Shown here: one piece after another, positions 1 through 7,059 of the stretch
Layout: the number at the start of each line of letters is the position of its first letter
Position numbering within the stretch: the first letter of the stretch is position 1
Assembly: GCA_947499935.1 (NCBI GenBank)
Contig: CANMQH010000016.1
Coordinates: forward strand, 1-64,000
Origin: an uncultured Algibacter sp.
GTDB taxonomy: Bacteria; Bacteroidota; Bacteroidia; Flavobacteriales; Flavobacteriaceae
Reading direction: 5' to 3'
DNA: 64,000 nt
Notes under the pieces: model-generated
The model's input: the letters and a program-made list of their open reading frames with translations, nothing else
What the model was told of the DNA's origin: nothing
The model's database searches: none
Position numbers and translations under genes: made by a program

Positions 1-130
1 TAATCTCCAAATAAGCTTTTTTTCCCATGCTTAAATATACAAAATATATACGGCGCTAAATAACTATATTGGTATTATTTGAGGTTTTAAAATTTTAATA
101 AGTCTTTTTACACCCAGATTATTAAAAAAT

Positions 131-170
131 AAAAAGCTGTATGAAAACTAAAGTTTTCATACAGCTTTTT
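131..170 (-). terminator. Rho-independent terminator of the 193-507 gene
   Basis: A perfect 18-bp stem (AAAAAGCTGTATGAAAAC at 131-148 with its complement at 153-170) closes on a 4-nt loop. T runs lie on both sides, so it could stop transcripts from either strand. It lies 23 bp past the stop codon of the minus-strand gene at 193-507. The 130 bases to its left show no gene. Confidence 0.85.
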
Positions 171-192
171 AACAATTAGCTTTGACTTCGTA

Positions 193-507
193 CTACTTAG
201 CTTCGATTAATTCTAAGTCTACGATTTTGTTACTTGCCCCTTCATTTGAGGTTTCGTCTGTGTCTGCTACAGACTCGTATGAAATGGAAAATGACTGACC
301 CTTAAATTCATCACCACTCAAGTCATACTTAGCCTTAGCTTCGTCGCTAATAAGCTCAAACGCCATAGCATTTGAATCTGTATCCATGAAGTTATAAACT
401 CCATTTTCGTAACCTGCATAAATGGCCACCACCGTTTCAGTGTTTTGATTGATGCTCGTTGTTGCTGTTGTTAACAATGCAAATAATGCAATACATAATG
501 TTTTCAT
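193..507 (-). CDS. Small secreted protein of unknown function
   Basis: The product has 104 residues. It opens with a typical signal peptide (MKTLCIALFALLTTATTS), so it should be exported to the periplasm or beyond. The mature part is acidic (many Asp and Glu, for example VADTDETSNEGAS) and has no Cys, no lipobox and no domain I recognise. The sequence YAGYENGVYNFMDTDSNAM suggests a short beta-rich fold. It is a single-gene unit that ends at the strong hairpin at 131-170. I cannot assign a role. The coding call is supported by the signal peptide, the terminator and typical codon use. Confidence 0.7.
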   Translation of the reverse strand: MKTLCIALFALLTTATTSINQNTETVVAIYAGYENGVYNFMDTDSNAMAFELISDEAKAKYDLSGDEFKGQSFSISYESVADTDETSNEGASNKIVDLELIEAK

Positions 508-960
508 GTTTTTTGATTTTAATGTTATGCCTTAGTTACGGGCTTATACTTTTTACGGATGCTTATATGTTACTTTTTAAGAAAACTTTAAGACAAAACG
601 TGTCATTCAACGTTTTTTTAACACTTATAGCGATAAAAAATGCTTTTTTATCAATTTAATTAACGAACACCAAACATGGCAAAGCTTTGTTTAAAACTTC
701 TAAAAAAACTGACATTAGCAAACTAAAGACACTATCTACATTGCAAGAGGCTTTCAATATACAAAAACAGAAAGTTTATTATTTTAATTATGTCAAATCA
801 ATCTTTTATCTACATCGTAAATTATACTATTTTTATTGCTAATCATAATTCTGAAATTAAATACTTATCGCACAAGATAATTAGCATACAAAAAATCACC
901 TTATTATTGGAATACTTTTAATTTTTCTGATATTCCAGAATCCCAAAATAAGAAAATATA
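508..960. other. AT-rich intergenic region
   Basis: About 450 bp lie between the divergent gene at 193-507 and the protease/regulator unit. It should hold the promoters of both. I found no exact TAnnTTTG element, no long inverted repeat and no credible ORF. The plus-strand frame open at 459-659 partly overlaps the secreted-protein gene and encodes a low-complexity hydrophobic peptide, so I do not call it. Confidence 0.5.
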
Positions 961-1032
961 ATGTTTTATATGCTTTTTGGGATGCTAATTGTTTCGATTA
1001 TTATATTTTTAAAGCCTAAACTAAAGTTATAA
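961..1032 (+). CDS. Possible 23-residue membrane peptide upstream of the protease gene
   Basis: An ATG at 961 opens a 24-codon frame ending in TAA at 1030-1032, four bases before the ATG of the protease gene. The peptide (MFYMLFGMLIVSIIIFLKP then KLKL) is one hydrophobic helix with a basic tail, the shape of a small single-pass membrane peptide. An in-frame stop at 949-951 limits extension upstream. The tight spacing to 1037 suggests translational coupling if it is real. Length alone gives little statistical support and the region is AT-rich, so this is only a candidate. Confidence 0.25.
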   Translation: MFYMLFGMLIVSIIIFLKPKLKL

Positions 1033-1036
1033 GACG

Positions 1037-1480
1037 ATGACTGAAACGCTTAGGGAGTTTTTAGAAAAAAAAGGTTATACAAAAGTTAAACTACACCTTA
1101 CTAAAACCAACCATTTTGAAATAAAAGCCAAAATAAATGGCCAACAAGGTCTATTTATTTTAGATACTGGAGCATCAAACTCATGTGTTGGCTTTGAAGC
1201 TATAGAAACTTTTAAATTAAAAGCAGAAGATTCTATGATTAAAGCTGCTGGGGCTGGAGCTATTGATATGGACACTAAAATGGCTAAAAAAAATAAGATT
1301 AAAATTGGAAAATGGTCTAACAACAAAGTCGTTTTAGTTTTATTTAATCTTACGCATGTTAATACAGCTCTTATAAACCATAATTCTAAACCTGTTGATG
1401 GTATTATTGGTGCCGATATATTAAAAAAAGGAAAAGGCATAATAGATTACCAAAAGAAATATCTATATTTAAAATTATAA
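1037..1480 (+). CDS. Retropepsin-like aspartic protease (clan AA)
   Basis: This 147-residue protein has the hallmark Asp-Thr-Gly-Ala-Ser motif at residues 43-47, preceded by a hydrophobic strand (GLFILDTGAS), and a second hydrophobic-Gly element near the end (VDGIIGADILKKGKGIIDY) that matches the ILG-type strand of retropepsins. One catalytic Asp per chain implies a homodimer. Family members are bacterial single-domain aspartyl proteases whose targets are mostly unknown. No signal peptide is seen, so it is probably cytoplasmic. The gene lies 30 bp upstream of a response regulator on the same strand, and the two probably share a transcript. A protease acting on the regulator or its partners is possible but is inference only. 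Confidence 0.8.
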   Translation: MTETLREFLEKKGYTKVKLHLTKTNHFEIKAKINGQQGLFILDTGASNSCVGFEAIETFKLKAEDSMIKAAGAGAIDMDTKMAKKNKIKIGKWSNNKVVLVLFNLTHVNTALINHNSKPVDGIIGADILKKGKGIIDYQKKYLYLKL

Positions 1481-1510
1481 ATTAATAGCTAACTATCCCT
1501 CTAGTCCTAA

Positions 1511-2143
1511 ATGAATACTTCTATTGTAATAGCAGATGACCATCCGCTTATGCTACGCGGTCTAACTGATTTTTTAACTTCAAAAGGTTTTAATATTATT
1601 GGAAGCGCCAAAGATGGAAACGCTGCCTATAACTTAATTGTAAAATTAAAGCCTGAAATTGCCATACTAGACATACGAATGCCACATAGAACCGGTTTGG
1701 AAATTGCCGAAGCATGTAAAAAAAATGATTTAGACACAAAAATAATACTGTTAACATTTGACAAGGAAGAAGATGTTTATGACCAAGCCATAGAGCATGG
1801 TGTATATGGTTATATTTTAAAAGAATTTGCTATTGAAGAAATTGAAACCTGTATCAGTAATGTTGCTAATGGTAAATCGTATTTTAGTGAAGAAATTGCA
1901 TCTTATCTTAATGCAAGTACATTAGAACAAAAACCTGATAAACTTGATTTACTCACAAAATCTGAATTAAGAATAGTTAAACTAATTTCTGAAAATAAAA
2001 CTAGCCAAGATATAGCAGATGAGTTGTCTATATCTGTAAGAACCGTAGATAAACACCGAAGTAATATTGTTTCTAAATTAGGGTTAGACAATAAGCCCAC
2101 ATCACTTTCTATCTGGGCAAACTTAAACAAAGCATTTTTATAA
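1511..2143 (+). CDS. NarL/FixJ-type response regulator (REC plus LuxR HTH), orphan
   Basis: The 210-residue protein has a receiver domain at about 4-122 with the acidic pair D9-D10, the phospho-acceptor D54 (AILDIRMP), a Thr in ILLTF and a Lys in YILKEF. A LuxR-type helix-turn-helix follows at about 145-205 (LTKSELRIVKLISENKTSQDIADELSISVRTVDKH). It should be a DNA-binding dimer controlled by phosphorylation. No histidine kinase gene lies within the window, so it is an orphan here. Its stop codon directly abuts the first of three identical-architecture palindromic promoters (2144, 2552, 2729). Those are the natural candidate targets, and the layout recalls GacA-controlled small RNA genes. That link is inferred from position, not shown. 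Confidence 0.93.
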   Translation: MNTSIVIADDHPLMLRGLTDFLTSKGFNIIGSAKDGNAAYNLIVKLKPEIAILDIRMPHRTGLEIAEACKKNDLDTKIILLTFDKEEDVYDQAIEHGVYGYILKEFAIEEIETCISNVANGKSYFSEEIASYLNASTLEQKPDKLDLLTKSELRIVKLISENKTSQDIADELSISVRTVDKHRSNIVSKLGLDNKPTSLSIWANLNKAFL

Positions 2144-2194
2144 AAATACGTAGAAGTGCGTATTTTTTAAACCGATGGCCTAACATATCTTTAC
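2144..2194 (+). promoter_or_regulatory. Activator-type palindrome and -7 element, promoter of sRNA copy 1
   Basis: The half-sites AAATACGTA (2144-2152) and TGCGTATTT (2157-2165) flank the spacer GAAG. Twenty-three bases after the CGTA of the right half comes TATCTTTAC (2186-2194), a close match to the Bacteroidota -7 element TAnnTTTG. This puts the palindrome centre near -42, where a class II activator would replace the -33 element. The same spacing recurs at 2552 and 2729. Confidence 0.75.
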
Positions 2195-2199
2195 AGTGC

Positions 2200-2268
2200 T
2201 ATTAATTAGTTCTTAGGGAGAATTAAAGAAAGCTCTAAATTGTAACGATTTAGAGCTTTCGCTTTTTT
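2200..2268 (+). ncRNA. Candidate small RNA, copy 1
   Basis: The predicted transcript starts a few bases after the -7 element at 2186-2194 and ends at a perfect 13-bp terminator stem (2228-2240 with 2248-2260, 7-nt loop) followed by a T-rich tail. About 28 unpaired nucleotides precede the stem, including TTAGTTCTTAGGGAGAATTA. It has no ATG, so it is unlikely to be translated. A near-identical copy, including promoter and terminator, lies at 2607-2676. Conservation is strongest in the unpaired arm, which suggests that arm is the functional part. I do not recognise an RNA family. Confidence 0.65.
2228..2268 (+). terminator. Terminator hairpin of sRNA copy 1
   Basis: GAAAGCTCTAAAT at 2228-2240 pairs fully with 2248-2260, followed by GCTTTTTTAT. 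This is a canonical intrinsic terminator and the 3' end of the candidate small RNA. Confidence 0.85.
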
Positions 2269-2551
2269 ATACTATTTATACTTTTCTAATTATTGCAAAC
2301 GCTTCTATACCTATGTTTAGATAACAACAATTTTACTCTAATTCTGTTTTTTAATATTTTAATTTCATTAGCAAAGCGTATACTATCAAAAATATAAGGC
2401 AATGGTTTTTATATTATGAATATTATAGACACTTGGCTTTAACTTTATTGATTTCTTCTAATAACTTTCATTATAAATCTAACTAAGTTATTATTACATA
2501 AGTGGACATTATTTAAAATCTTATTTAAACGTTTAACAATCATATTCTAAA

Positions 2552-2602
2552 AAATACGTAGAAGTACGTATTTGATAAATCGATTGTCTAGTATACCTTT
2601 AC
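2552..2602 (+). promoter_or_regulatory. Perfect palindrome and -7 element, promoter of sRNA copy 2
   Basis: AAATACGTA (2552-2560) and TACGTATTT (2565-2573) form a perfect inverted repeat around GAAG. A 23-bp gap separates the right CGTA from TACCTTTAC (2594-2602). The sequence between the two elements differs from copy 1, while the box, spacing and -7 element are kept, as expected under selection. Confidence 0.75.
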
Positions 2603-2606
2603 CATG

Positions 2607-2676
2607 CTATTAATTAGTTCTTAGGGAGAATTAAAGAAGGCTCTAAATTATAACGATTTAGAGCTTTCACTTTTTT
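2607..2676 (+). ncRNA. Candidate small RNA, copy 2
   Basis: This repeats copy 1 almost base for base from the predicted start to the terminator. The stem is 2636-2648 with 2656-2668 and has one G-T wobble. The unpaired 5' arm (TTAGTTCTTAGGGAGAATTA) is identical to that of copy 1. No start codon is present. The two copies are 408 bp apart and the DNA between them is unrelated, so a whole transcription unit was duplicated or both have been retained under selection. Confidence 0.65.
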
Positions 2677-2677
2677 A
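2636..2677 (+). terminator. Terminator hairpin of sRNA copy 2
   Basis: A 13-bp stem with a single wobble (2636-2648 with 2656-2668) and a 7-nt loop, followed by a T-rich tail. It has the same design as the terminator at 2228-2268. Confidence 0.85.
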
Positions 2678-2728
2678 TATCATTTCGTATTTTAATTAAG
2701 AAAATTACATGCTATACAGGTTATCACA

Positions 2729-2779
2729 AAATACGTAGAAGTGCGTATTTTTTTTTATTTGGGTGTAAACTACCTTTAC
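2729..2779 (+). promoter_or_regulatory. Third copy of the palindrome and -7 element
   Basis: AAATACGTA (2729-2737), GAAG, TGCGTATTT (2742-2750), then 23 bp from the right CGTA to TACCTTTAC (2771-2779). Downstream of the -7 element the sequence is unlike the two sRNA copies and leads into a short ORF at 2864-2980. The same regulator therefore probably controls two RNAs and one small membrane peptide. Confidence 0.75.
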
Positions 2780-2863
2780 AAAACAAGTTATTCATATAAT
2801 ATGATTTTTAAATACTTCATATTATTACAATAAATATTTAACTAAATAATACTGAATCCAACA

Positions 2864-2980
2864 ATGGTAAATCCAGCAATGAAAAAAGAAAGCTACATAC
2901 CTAATAAAATATGTCTCATAGGACTATTTGTATTGGTTATTTTAGTTATTTCTATAAATATTTTTATGTGTTTTAGTTAG
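2864..2980 (+). CDS. Small single-pass membrane peptide (38 codons)
   Basis: An ATG at 2864 (or the in-frame ATG at 2879) opens a frame ending in TAG at 2978-2980. The short form has 33 residues: a basic polar N-terminus (MKKESYIPNK), then one hydrophobic helix (ICLIGLFVLVILVISINIF) and a tail with a Cys. The gene has its own promoter with the palindromic box at 2729-2750, a leader of about 80 bases, and a terminator at 3011-3048. These boundaries make a real gene likely despite its size. The Bacteroidota -7 element and box tie it to the response regulator locus. Function unknown; a membrane-acting stress peptide is one possibility. Confidence 0.55.
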   Translation: MVNPAMKKESYIPNKICLIGLFVLVILVISINIFMCFS

Positions 2981-3010
2981 TAAAAGAGAAAGTAGTGTAA
3001 TCACTAACAA

Positions 3011-3048
3011 AAAAAAGGCATTACATATAATTATGCAATACCTTTTTT
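3011..3048. terminator. Bidirectional terminator between the small peptide gene and sucB
   Basis: A8-G-type stem: AAAAAAGG (3011-3018) pairs with CCTTTTTT (3041-3048) and the stem continues with two mismatches to a 4-nt loop near 3028-3031. T runs on both strands and convergent flanking genes support use in both directions. Confidence 0.75.
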
Positions 3049-3068
3049 ATTTCTCTTTTGCGTTATAA

Positions 3069-4280
3069 CTATAACTCTAATGCTTTTTTTACATCATTAT
3101 CCATCAATAACTCTATTGGATTCTCTAAAGCTTCTTTTACAGCTACCAAAAACCCAACACTTTCTTTACCATCAATAATTCTGTGATCATAAGATAAAGC
3201 GACATACATAATAGGTCGTATTTCAACTTTACCATCTATAGCTACAGGACGTTCTATGATATTGTGCATACCTAAAATACCACTTTGCGGCGGATTAATT
3301 ATTGGCGTTGACAACATGCTACCAAATACACCTCCGTTAGTGATTGTAAAAGTACCACCAGTCATCTCATCAACAGTAATTTGACCATCTCTAGCACGAA
3401 GTGCTAAACGTTTTACTTCAGACTCTACACCTCTAAAACCTAAATGCTCTGCGTTTCTTATAACAGGAACCATTAAACCTTTTGGTCCTGAAACTGCTAT
3501 ACTAATATCACAGAAATCATAAGAAAGCATTTCTTTACCATCAATCATAGAGTTCACGGCAGGATACATTTTTAAGGCTCTAACTACAGCTAGCGTGAAA
3601 AAACTCATAAAGCCTAAACTTACACCATGCTTACCTTTAAAGGTCTCTTTGTATGCTTTACGCAACTCAAAAATTGGAGACATGTCCACCTCATTAAAAG
3701 TGGTTAACATAGCTGTTGTATTTTTAACTTCTACCAAACGCTCTGCCACTTTTCTGCGTAGCATAGACATTTTGCTTCTAGATGAACCTCGACTACCACC
3801 AGCTGGCGTTCCCATAGATGGCACAGCCTTTACAGCATCTTCTTTGGTTATCCTACCGTCTTTTCCAGTTCCAGAAATTGAATGTGCATCCATTCCTTTT
3901 TCAGCTAAAATCTTTTTAGCTGCTGGACTAGCAGATCCAGTAGCGTAAGTTTTTGTTTCTGCTACAGGAGCTTTAGGCGCATCTGCTTTGGGTGCATCTT
4001 CTTTTTTTTCTGCTTTTGGAGTGTCACCACCTTCAGGTTTTGCAGCACTAGTATCAATTAAACATACTACAGCTCCAACCTCTACAGCGTCACCTTCTTC
4101 TGCTTTTAGCGTTATAATCCCACTCATTTCTGCAGGTAATTCAAGAGTCGCTTTATCACTATCTACCTCAGCAATAGCTTGGTCTTTTTCAACATAATCA
4201 CCATCTTCTACTAGCCATGCAGCTATTTCCACTTCTGTGATAGACTCCCCTGGCGAAGGTACTTTCATTTCTAAAATCAT
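3069..4280 (-). CDS. sucB: Dihydrolipoyllysine-residue succinyltransferase, E2 of 2-oxoglutarate dehydrogenase
   Basis: The 403-residue E2 transfers the succinyl group from the E1-formed intermediate to CoA in the TCA cycle. An N-terminal lipoyl domain (about 2-76) carries the lipoylated Lys at K43 ([14 protein letters not shown]). An Ala/Pro/Lys-rich linker follows, then an E3-binding domain (about 116-152, [14 protein letters not shown]) and the catalytic acyltransferase domain ending in HRIIDG, the active-site His motif. The length is normal for the family. It lies 34 bp downstream of sucA on the same strand and is cotranscribed. The E3 gene is not in the window. The alternative of a pyruvate E2 is excluded by the adjacent OdhA-type E1. 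Confidence 0.96.
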
Positions 4281-4314
4281 TCTTTATAATTTTAATTGTC
4301 TCTTAATTTCTTTA

Positions 4315-7059
4315 TTAGTTATTTTCTTGAAAAACAGCATCAATAACGTTTTGTTGCCTTCTTTTATCTCGTGTATTAGAGCCTGGTGCAGGCACCGAAC
4401 TATATGGTCTAGAACACACCTCTAACTTTACCAAATCCATACGTTGTAACATATGGCTCCAAGCCCCCATATTCTTAGGCTCTTCTTGTGCCCATACGTA
4501 ATTTTGAACATTTGGGTAGCGATCAATAATCGCTTGTATATTATCTAGATGCAGAGGAAATAATTGTTCTATCCTAACCAAAGCGACATCGTCTCTATCT
4601 AGAGATTCTCTATTAGCTAACAAATCATAATAAAACTTACCTGTGCAAAACACTAATTTTTTTACGTTTTTAGGGTTAATCGAATCGTCTATAACTTCTT
4701 GGAATGTGCCTTCTGAAAGCTCTTTTATTGATGATACGGCTTTTGGATGACGTAATAAACTTTTTGGAGTAAATACAATTAAAGGTTTTCTATAATTACG
4801 TTTCATTTGACGACGTAATAAATGAAACATATTGGCTGGTGTTGTACAATCTGCAACTATCATGTTATCGTTACCACAAAGTTGTAAATAGCGCTCTATT
4901 CTTGCAGACGAATGCTCTGATCCTTGGCCTTCGTATCCATGAGGTAATAATACAACTATGCCATTTTGAGATTTCCATTTATCTTCTGCGGCCGACAAAT
5001 ATTGATCAAAGATTATTTGAGCTCCGTTACTAAAATCTCCAAATTGAGCTTCCCAAATAGTTAAGGTATTAGGATTTGCCATAGCATAACCATAATCAAA
5101 GCCAAGTACACCATACTCTGATAAAAAGGAATTATAAATATCCATTTTACCTTTATTTTCAGAATTTGTATTTAGTAAGTTTATGCGTTCTTCAGATATT
5201 TCATCACGTAATATAGCATGTCTGTGGCTAAATGTACCACGTTCTACATCTTGTCCAGAAATACGAACGTTAAATCCTTCTTCCATCAAACTTCCGTATG
5301 CAAGTGTTTCTGCCATACCCCAATCTAGCGTATCGGTTTCAAAAACCATTTTTTCTCGCCCATTCAAAATTCGCTCTGCTTTACGCAAAAACTTCACCCC
5401 TTGTGGAACTGTAGAAACGACTTTAGAAATATTTTCTAAATTAGTTTTTGGATATGTCGTGTCTTCAGGCTCTAACATAGCATCAAGACCCTTACGCTCA
5501 AACGCAGACCAGCGCTCTTGCATAAACTCTCTAACCTTGGAAGACTCTGCTTTTTTAGACTTTTCATATTCACGTTCTAAAGTTTCTTTAAACTCTTTAA
5601 CAATCTGATCGGAATACGATTTATCTATAGTATTTTCTGCAACTAATTTCTCAGCATATATTTTAAATGGATTAGCATGTTTTGATATTTCCTTGTATAA
5701 TTTAGGTTGCGTAAAACGCGGCTCATCACCTTCATTATGACCATATTTTCTATAGCCTAGTAAATCTATATAAACATCTTTTTTATATCGCATTCTATAC
5801 TCCAAGGCCATTTCTACGGCGTGTACAACAGCTTCTGCATCATCTGCATTAACATGTAACACAGGAGACAGTGTTACTTTTGCAACATCAGTACAATATG
5901 TACTAGAACGCGCATCAAGATAATTGGTTGTAAAACCAATTTGATTGTTTACTACAATATGTATGGTACCGCCAGTTTTATAGCCACTTAATTGACTCAT
6001 TTGAGCCACTTCATAAACAACTCCTTGACCTGCAATAGCAGCATCTCCATGCACTATAATTGGTATGATTTTAGAATCATCTCCATTATAATCACTATCT
6101 ATTTTGGCTCTAGTAATTCCTTCTGCTACTGGTGCAACAGTCTCTAAATGTGATGGATTTGGCACAAGGTTCATCTTAATATTTTTACCATTTTGGTATG
6201 TTTTATTAAGTGTTAATCCTAAGTGGTATTTTACATCGCCATCAATATCTTCATCTTCAAAATCTTTACCATCAAACTCACTAAACAACTCGTTAACGGG
6301 TTTTCTGAAAATATTAACAAGCGTGCTTAAACGTCCGCGGTGAGCCATACCTAAAACACATTCTTTTACGCCATATTTTTCAACGGCATAAAAAAGCACA
6401 TTACTAAGAGCAGGAATTAAAGATTCTCCACCTTCTAGTGAAAACCTTTTTTGTCCTACGTATTTGGTTTGTAAAAAATTCTCAAACGTTACTGCTTGGT
6501 TTAACTTTGAAAGAATATATTTTTTGGTTTCATCTGAAAAATTGGGCTGATTCTTATTTTTATTTAATTGACCCTGCCACCATTTTATAACTTCAGGATT
6601 TCGTAAATACATATATTCTACACCAATAGAACTACAGTATACCTGTTCTAAATGTGCTATAATTTGACGTAATGTTTTAGCACCAATACCTAAAATTTCT
6701 CCTGCATTAAAAACGGTATCTAAATCAGATTCAGATAAATCAAAATTCTTAATATCTAAAGAAGGCTTATAACTTCTACGTTCTCGTACAGGGTTGGTTT
6801 TGGTAAATAAATGGCCACGTATTCTATATCCATCAATAAGTCTAACAACATGAAACTCTTTTTGTACATGCTCTGGAATTTGCGTAGATACGCCTTCTAT
6901 AATATCTCCAGTTAACCCATAATTTTCGCTTCCAAAATCGTAGCCTTGAAAAAAGGCCCTCCAACTTGGTTCTACAGTATCTGGATTCTCTAAATATTGA
7001 TCGTATAAATCAGCAAAATATGCTGTATGTGCTGTGTTTAAAAATGAAAATTTATCCAT
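4315..7059 (-). CDS. sucA: 2-oxoglutarate dehydrogenase E1 component
   Basis: This 914-residue TPP-dependent E1 decarboxylates 2-oxoglutarate. The N-terminus MDKFSFLNTAHTAYF and the early motif PSWRAFFQGYDFG are typical of OdhA-type E1 proteins. Central motifs include GMAHRGRLSTLVN, HGDAAIAGQGVVYE and a TPP-binding segment before NNQIGFTT. The C-terminal half has RHAILRDE and LLPHGYEGQGSEHSS. The reading frame is open 51 bp further upstream, but the ATG at 7057-7059 gives the family N-terminus and sits 41 bp after a -7 element at 7100-7107. Operon with sucB. Confidence 0.97.
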   Translation of the reverse strand: MDKFSFLNTAHTAYFADLYDQYLENPDTVEPSWRAFFQGYDFGSENYGLTGDIIEGVSTQIPEHVQKEFHVVRLIDGYRIRGHLFTKTNPVRERRSYKPSLDIKNFDLSESDLDTVFNAGEILGIGAKTLRQIIAHLEQVYCSSIGVEYMYLRNPEVIKWWQGQLNKNKNQPNFSDETKKYILSKLNQAVTFENFLQTKYVGQKRFSLEGGESLIPALSNVLFYAVEKYGVKECVLGMAHRGRLSTLVNIFRKPVNELFSEFDGKDFEDEDIDGDVKYHLGLTLNKTYQNGKNIKMNLVPNPSHLETVAPVAEGITRAKIDSDYNGDDSKIIPIIVHGDAAIAGQGVVYEVAQMSQLSGYKTGGTIHIVVNNQIGFTTNYLDARSSTYCTDVAKVTLSPVLHVNADDAEAVVHAVEMALEYRMRYKKDVYIDLLGYRKYGHNEGDEPRFTQPKLYKEISKHANPFKIYAEKLVAENTIDKSYSDQIVKEFKETLEREYEKSKKAESSKVREFMQERWSAFERKGLDAMLEPEDTTYPKTNLENISKVVSTVPQGVKFLRKAERILNGREKMVFETDTLDWGMAETLAYGSLMEEGFNVRISGQDVERGTFSHRHAILRDEISEERINLLNTNSENKGKMDIYNSFLSEYGVLGFDYGYAMANPNTLTIWEAQFGDFSNGAQIIFDQYLSAAEDKWKSQNGIVVLLPHGYEGQGSEHSSARIERYLQLCGNDNMIVADCTTPANMFHLLRRQMKRNYRKPLIVFTPKSLLRHPKAVSSIKELSEGTFQEVIDDSINPKNVKKLVFCTGKFYYDLLANRESLDRDDVALVRIEQLFPLHLDNIQAIIDRYPNVQNYVWAQEEPKNMGAWSHMLQRMDLVKLEVCSRPYSSVPAPGSNTRDKRRQQNVIDAVFQENN

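Follow-up and report, generated by a model that had tools for sequence, protein, structure and literature searches.

A LuxR-type response regulator locus of Flavobacteriaceae with repeated palindromic boxes, two predicted small RNAs and a micropeptide gene

The window, a 64,000-nucleotide stretch of DNA from an uncultured Algibacter sp., contains towards its left end a compact locus centred on the gene for a response regulator of the NarL/FixJ type (1511-2143, forward strand). Assignment to this type follows from the combination of an N-terminal receiver domain (Pfam PF00072, E 5e-25) with a C-terminal GerE helix-turn-helix (PF00196, 9e-13). On the same strand, directly upstream, lies the gene for a clan AA (retropepsin-like) aspartyl protease (1037-1480; PF13650, 8e-12), a conserved neighbour. 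The right boundary of the locus is set, here and in many relatives, by a convergent gene for an odhB/sucB-like 2-oxoacid dehydrogenase E2 component (3069-4280, reverse strand; PF00198). No kinase gene stands beside the regulator in the window.

Between these boundaries the forward strand bears three putative palindromic operators: box 1 at 2144-2165 (AAATACGTAGAAGTGCGTATTT), box 2 at 2552-2573 (AAATACGTAGAAGTACGTATTT) and box 3 at 2729-2750 (AAATACGTAGAAGTGCGTATTT), all three exact and, in box 2, with perfectly complementary half-sites (AAATACGTA and TACGTATTT). Their positions and letters are precisely those of the preliminary description, which had also correctly placed the end of the regulator gene one base before the first box (2143 and 2144, respectively). 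The -7 elements of the corresponding promoters are found at 2186-2193 (TATCTTTA), 2594-2601 and 2771-2778 (both TACCTTTA). A separation of exactly 23 bp between box and TAYCTTTAC, as earlier reported, is seen three times in the window and not once in 100 dinucleotide shuffles. The significance of the boxes lies in this spacing, since the box alone (up to three mismatches) is not rare in the genome of origin, with 18 and 17 occurrences on the two strands compared to 10 and 12 for the reversed pattern; the exact box is present there at the window locus only.

The sequence between box and -7 element had been considered free filler. Among 57 related promoters this holds for the greater part, which varies, but not for a T-rich stretch immediately following the box, which is conserved. 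The promoter alignment, like the check on the neighbours of rarer boxes described below, drew on 80 of 115 loci from the RNA scan (88 RNAs). According to the accessible text of PMC9723704, the sigma-A -7 element of Flavobacterium psychrophilum spans -12 to -5, and the predicted transcription start is therefore the G of GCTATTAAT (2198 and 2606). Measured from this inferred +1 the box is centred at about -43.5, close to the -42 originally proposed. Promoters of the E. coli sigma-70 type were rejected as candidates, four being found in 2100-3070 where 7.1 are expected.

Behind boxes 1 and 2 lie two predicted small RNAs, homologous to one another, about 70 nt long, beginning GCUAUUAAUUAGUUCUUAGGGAG and equipped with terminators. 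RNA 1 (2198-2268, forward) has a single-stranded GCUAUUAAU, a small hairpin with GGGAG and a terminator hairpin (2228-2260, from the terminator scan), while its paralogue RNA 2 (2606-2676, forward) has a terminator hairpin at 2636-2668. Fold z-scores are -4.6 for 2196-2268 and -5.4 for 2604-2676, and the two strands of 2100-3070 contain five terminator-like sites, against 0.1 in shuffles, two of which are the ends of the RNAs. Boxes 1 and 2 are both included in a 159-nt direct repeat (two copies, 84% identity); no such RNA is present behind box 3. A search of positions 1-6000 with Rfam 15 gave no match in the RNAs above the gathering score. The five matches at E<=5 were all to miRNA models, all below gathering and all at 129-173, where a strong hairpin between two genes is probably a bidirectional terminator and the source of these spurious matches. 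The RNAs with their terminators, the micropeptide and the antisense element of the regulator leader, the latter two treated below, do not figure in the preliminary description.

Box 3 precedes the gene for a micropeptide of 33 residues (MKKESYIPNKICLIGLFVLVILVISINIFMCFS; 2879-2980, forward strand), or of 38 if translation starts at 2864, with one hydrophobic stretch as judged by eye rather than by a transmembrane predictor. The window peptide has no Pfam or NCBIfam match at E<=0.05. A profile built with 18 peptide seeds detected homologues at 82 of the 102 regulator loci, these seeds included and a few of the 102 being one contig reached twice (e.g. L009 and L198); all 82 fall among the 95 loci with regulator identity of at least 45%. 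In 47 close pairs the mean pN was 0.09 compared to a pS of 0.51; by codon position, the differences counted were 229 (first), 88 (second) and 540 (third). By these measures the micropeptide behaves as a real gene under purifying selection.

The preliminary description would have been refuted by a lack of conservation of box and spacing near orthologues of the regulator, and such conservation was indeed found, strongly in its favour. Fetching by regulator similarity alone gave 54 loci, 51 of them aligned to the regulator end, and the pattern scored was box, 23 bp and nAnnTTTR within 700 nt downstream of the regulator gene. It is present in 43 of 44 loci with regulator identity of at least 45%, a set that includes the window's own locus, L051 being the exception and L043 too short to judge, and in one of six loci below 45%. 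Upstream and reversed-pattern controls were both 0. Genome counts here and below are inflated by the relatedness of the genomes. The initial observation is thus real, and stronger than stated.

Among 91 loci with regulator identity of at least 45% the aspartyl protease gene is directly upstream of the regulator in 87, while in the other four that place is taken by a histidine kinase gene, with the protease ahead of the kinase. The kinase domains (TPR/HisKA_3/HATPase_c) were confirmed by Pfam in two of these four, and the TPR histidine kinase that there lies between protease and regulator (L311:2564-4324, L314:2047-4065) is the best candidate for a lost or moved partner of the regulator. The RNA core occurs in 78 of the 87 protease-linked loci, a figure biased upward by the many loci picked by box or RNA, compared to none of the four kinase-linked loci, of which three have a box and two a weak peptide match. 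In a tree of 57 of 99 rows the four kinase-linked loci group together (99/97), nested with weak support (87/57) in the protease-linked set. In one genome (G071, L143:1346) the last box and a type-II RNA lie some 8 kb from the others, beside odhB, as if the locus had been split by insertion.

The distribution of the RNA was followed with a model, R1, built from 23 type-I RNAs (alignment A1) whose seeds were picked behind TACGTA boxes; RNA 1, itself a seed, scores 91.8 bits by construction. R1 matched 64 of 199 family genomes, at one to five copies per locus, and in 56 of the 64 there is a match downstream of the regulator. No fewer than 97 of 139 matches follow a same-strand regulator match at a distance of at most 1.5 kb, up to 23 of them R1's own seeds, where about 0.03 would be expected. 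Regulator and RNA are found together in 59 genomes and the RNA only in five, and in 33 of the 92 genomes with the regulator (E<=1e-45) no RNA was found by R1 (Fisher p 1e-20, not corrected for kinship). Over 395 genomes of the phylum R1 matched eight, with the 5' module in four (G000, G124, G153 and G156), all Flavobacteriaceae. Matches in G379, G481, G530 and G557, of 39 bits or less, were taken as terminator-only chance matches; that in G379 starts CTATTAATTAATT but is, by eye, the end of a GroEL-like reading frame.

Behind TACGTA boxes 54 distinct RNAs were collected, the start GCTATTA being a condition of the search, and these comprise 27 of type I (UUCUUAGGGAG), six of type II (CUUUUGAGAGAGAA) and 21 of neither. 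Among type I RNAs, double changes affect 11 of the 21 base pairs predicted, every one of these 11 belonging to the terminator stem and none to the 5' hairpin. The stem thus shows covariation, and conservation of the 5' half is at the level of sequence.

A scan of named genomes by RNA sequence alone yielded at least 115 stretches with at least 131 distinct RNAs. Among the matches listed (131 RNAs), 82 combine a TACGTA-N4-TRCGTA box with the upstream gene of this response regulator and 27 a TACTCA-N3-TGAGTA box with an upstream PAS-LuxR gene, with no crossed regulator/box pair in the 109. In the same set one RNA has a TACCCA box together with a further LuxR-type gene of 36% identity, and one (L166) follows this response regulator but lacks a clear box. 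For the other 20 no gene of this kind was found, although in 10 cases less than 800 nt of upstream sequence was available. Again among the matches listed, boxes begin at -51 in 87 of the 88 RNAs with the TACGTA type and in all six with a TACC type, and at -50 in 28 of 29 with the TACTCA type, the remaining one being at -33; eight RNAs have no box. A change of LuxR-type regulator is thus accompanied by a change of palindrome, while the place in the promoter and the RNA behind it stay the same, which supports the notion that each regulator reads the adjoining box.

Most of the off-locus RNA matches that were fetched adjoin a LuxR-type gene with GerE and a PAS-like N-terminus (PF08447, just under the cut-off in L119) and have the TACTCA-N3-TGAGTA palindrome in front of them. 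The TACTCA type is probably absent from the genome of origin, since there R1 at E<=0.001 finds only the two window RNAs. A LuxR-type HTH gene is present in three of nine loci with another box or none, and at L182 and L163 it directly adjoins the unusual box; two further cases are L131 and L124, where a LuxR-type gene is the divergent neighbour. Any pairing of the rarer boxes with further regulators is suggestive only. Copies of the RNA module with no recognised box were seen at L229, L180, L196, L248, L251 and L259, the first of these having a different palindrome-like stretch, TACGG-AATC-CCGTA.

The leader of the regulator gene itself contains a putative pairing site, AATTAATAGC (1480-1489, forward, 22-31 nt before the ATG), which is complementary without a mismatch, over 10 nt, to the RNA 5' end GCUAUUAAUU, with a duplex energy of -10.6 kcal/mol. 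The 60 nt ahead of regulator start codons were accordingly compared with reverse-complement 9-mers of the RNA module. At regulator identity of at least 60%, 29 of 73 distinct leaders carry such an antisense 9-mer, where the forward, reverse and complement controls gave 1, 0 and 2 and shuffling gave 2.6 on average and 8 at most; between 45 and 60% identity the figure is nine of 30 (controls 0-2). PAS-LuxR leaders gave one of 24 at k=9 (controls 0-1), that is, no enrichment. The match is not universal, the exact 9-mer being present in 31 of 113 regulator upstream regions. A wider target search with a composite antisense pattern of both motifs hit 26 of 199 genomes, compared to 14 for the reversed pattern. 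Among 31 of its 34 rows the regulator recurs (G000, G071 and G060), five other matches are at the starts of frames longer than 100 residues, none recurring, and no wider target set is apparent. Since regulator leaders often contain this antisense element, feedback on them by base-pairing is likely.

Boxes away from the locus precede, in three genomes, one orthologous gene of about 80 codons, itself found in six of 30 genomes, with G019 reaching no better than E 7e-4. All six have a box of up to two mismatches positioned 49-65 nt before the start of the gene, and in five of the six exactly 23 bp separate it from TAnnTTTR, so that this protein family is likely a member of the regulon. It is an orphan family with weak resemblance to KTSC (E 0.02), represented at L139:1461-1767, L144, L146 and L274-L279. 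In the genome of origin a one-mismatch box at C3:238914-238963 (L140:2915-2965), with the exact 23-bp spacing to TATATTTA, immediately precedes a cas9-like gene, whose match to Cas9_a is weak (E 0.0014). This palindrome also faces TAnnTTTG on the opposite strand, and the cas9-like frame looks interrupted (592 residues, a gap, then 468).

From the layout, from the way in which the operator changes along with the regulator, and from the conservation of the products, we favour, with good confidence, a set of regulator-activated small RNAs plus a micropeptide as the best explanation of the locus, the RNAs acting by base-pairing with the leader as one target in a feedback loop. The boxes with their spacing, the conserved RNA and peptide, the linkage and the antisense match can be read directly from the DNA; upon them the following scheme may be built. 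A kinase encoded elsewhere would phosphorylate the regulator, a dimer of which would bind the TACGTA-N4-TRCGTA box, whose centre lies near -43.5, and so activate sigma-A promoters beside its own gene; that the regulator switches on the adjoining repeated promoters is, judged from sequence, very probable. Boxes 1 and 2 would then drive the two paralogous RNAs of about 70 nt with their strongly conserved 5' module, and box 3 the peptide of 33 residues, probably located in the inner membrane. The RNAs most likely act by base-pairing, using the 5' end against mRNA, and the regulator's own leader would be a first target, closing a putative feedback loop. For the micropeptide a feedback role in membrane signalling is probable.

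Other readings of the same features must be weighed against this scheme. The RNAs might, like those under GacA, titrate an RNA-binding protein through a repeated hairpin with UUAGGGAG, the number of copies (one to five R1 copies per locus) giving the dose; UUAGGG is indeed invariant within the hairpin of 23 of 23 type-I RNAs in A1 and the GGGAG hairpin is present in 22 of 23. Other subtypes differ, however: 27 of the 54 box-driven RNAs lack the TTCTTAGGGAG-type hairpin, yet keep GCUAUUA, which selection required, and mostly GCUAUUAAU. Moreover, the genome of origin yielded no CsrA/RsmA (PF02599), Hfq (PF17209) or RRM_1 (PF00076) match, where the same profiles match 3, 5 and 2 of 14 control genomes, respectively, one of the last two a Bacteroides, and the antisense match in regulator leaders would be left unexplained. 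We therefore regard a protein sponge as unlikely. Slightly less likely again is that the micropeptide is the primary output and the RNAs mere by-products of promoter duplication, or leaders of the peptide mRNA. Two loci with kinase-linked regulators (L042 and L052) do have a box and a weak peptide match (E 2e-4 and 2e-3) with no RNA core, and at L009, L012, L017 and L030 the peptide gene comes after the last RNA with no further box in between; but the 5' module of the RNA is far more constrained than a leader needs, each window RNA ends in a terminator of its own, and the module is also seen outside this locus, next to a different regulator.

That some regulator other than the adjacent one reads the boxes seems improbable. 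The pairing of regulator and box is, admittedly, a correlation only, and boxes of the TACGTA type are also seen away from the locus; against this, box type tracks the type of the adjacent regulator with no exception in the 109 pairs among the matches listed, and box, spacing and promoter stay together in 43 of 44 loci. The 159-nt repeat in two copies might, finally, suggest a mobile or selfish element of promoter-like composition, an idea that we find scarcely credible given terminator covariation and the fixed syntenic place of the copies behind the regulator.

The locus is consequently best read, on sequence grounds, as a new regulator/sRNA/micropeptide circuit of Flavobacteriaceae. The openly accessible main texts searched contain no description of RNA, box or circuit that we could find, and in marine relatives of Flavobacterium the locus appears to yield a pair of small RNAs, together with a very small membrane protein, that have gone without a description in that literature. 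More generally, we incline, by a narrow measure, to the view that Flavobacteriaceae possess a portable small RNA output module, in which a near-invariant 5' RNA element follows three or more kinds of LuxR-type regulator. These would be the response regulator, the PAS-LuxR type and other LuxR-type genes, every kind having a palindrome of its own, always at one and the same place in the promoter. Different signals would thereby converge on one RNA regulator working without CsrA, Hfq or RRM_1, and the module would belong to two-component loci from which the kinase gene has moved away or been lost. If true, unlike regulators converge on one RNA module without known RNA chaperones, in a phylum where post-transcriptional regulation beyond Bacteroides is little charted. 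Regulator, operator, RNAs, peptide and probable first RNA target are all given here with coordinates, so that the whole circuit is testable in one cultivated marine flavobacterium.

Several known systems invite comparison. In the GacS/GacA-RsmY/Z (CsrB) system of gammaproteobacteria a response regulator of the LuxR/NarL type activates redundant small RNAs via a palindrome upstream of the promoter. The parallel drawn in the preliminary description stands as regards this layout from regulator to small RNA, but not as regards membership: CsrA, Hfq and RRM_1 were not found in the genome of origin, the RNAs have no Rfam match, and the window regulator scores 103.3 bits against NCBIfam NF007018 (the GacA/UvrY/SirA equivalog), the cut-off being 280. 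The window locus differs further in that its RNAs adjoin the regulator, a third promoter precedes the gene for a small hydrophobic peptide, the box is unlike the Gac box, and the RNA probably pairs with the regulator leader. Of the several GGA motifs in loops that mark Gac/Rsm small RNAs, the type-I RNAs show one GGGAG hairpin in 22 of 23, and other subtypes differ. The Qrr small RNAs of Vibrio need Hfq and a sigma-54 activator, whereas the circuit proposed here has a -7 element of the sigma-A type in a genome in which no Hfq was found. The likeness lies in sibling small RNAs placed in a feedback loop with a regulator (PMC2680268). Within the same phylum FopS and GibS of Bacteroides, by their description in the accessible text of PMC11697453, are likewise paralogous RNAs of about 65-70 nt whose conserved 5' seed pairs near start codons; there the activator of FopS was unknown to the authors and the RRM-1 protein RbpB is involved, a class of protein of which no member was found in the genome of origin. 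Rfp18 of F. psychrophilum, also compared by description, is a conserved flavobacterial small RNA predicted to pair via its third stem-loop and affecting protease mRNAs, in a paper whose main text includes neither 'LuxR' nor 'response regulator' (PMC9723704). For the peptide the nearest likeness, again by description from the accessible text (PMC2789325), is PhoP-MgrB, where expression of a tiny membrane protein is turned on by a response regulator; the micropeptide, whose membrane location is judged by eye, would be a comparable case if it is switched on from the box-3 promoter upstream of its gene.
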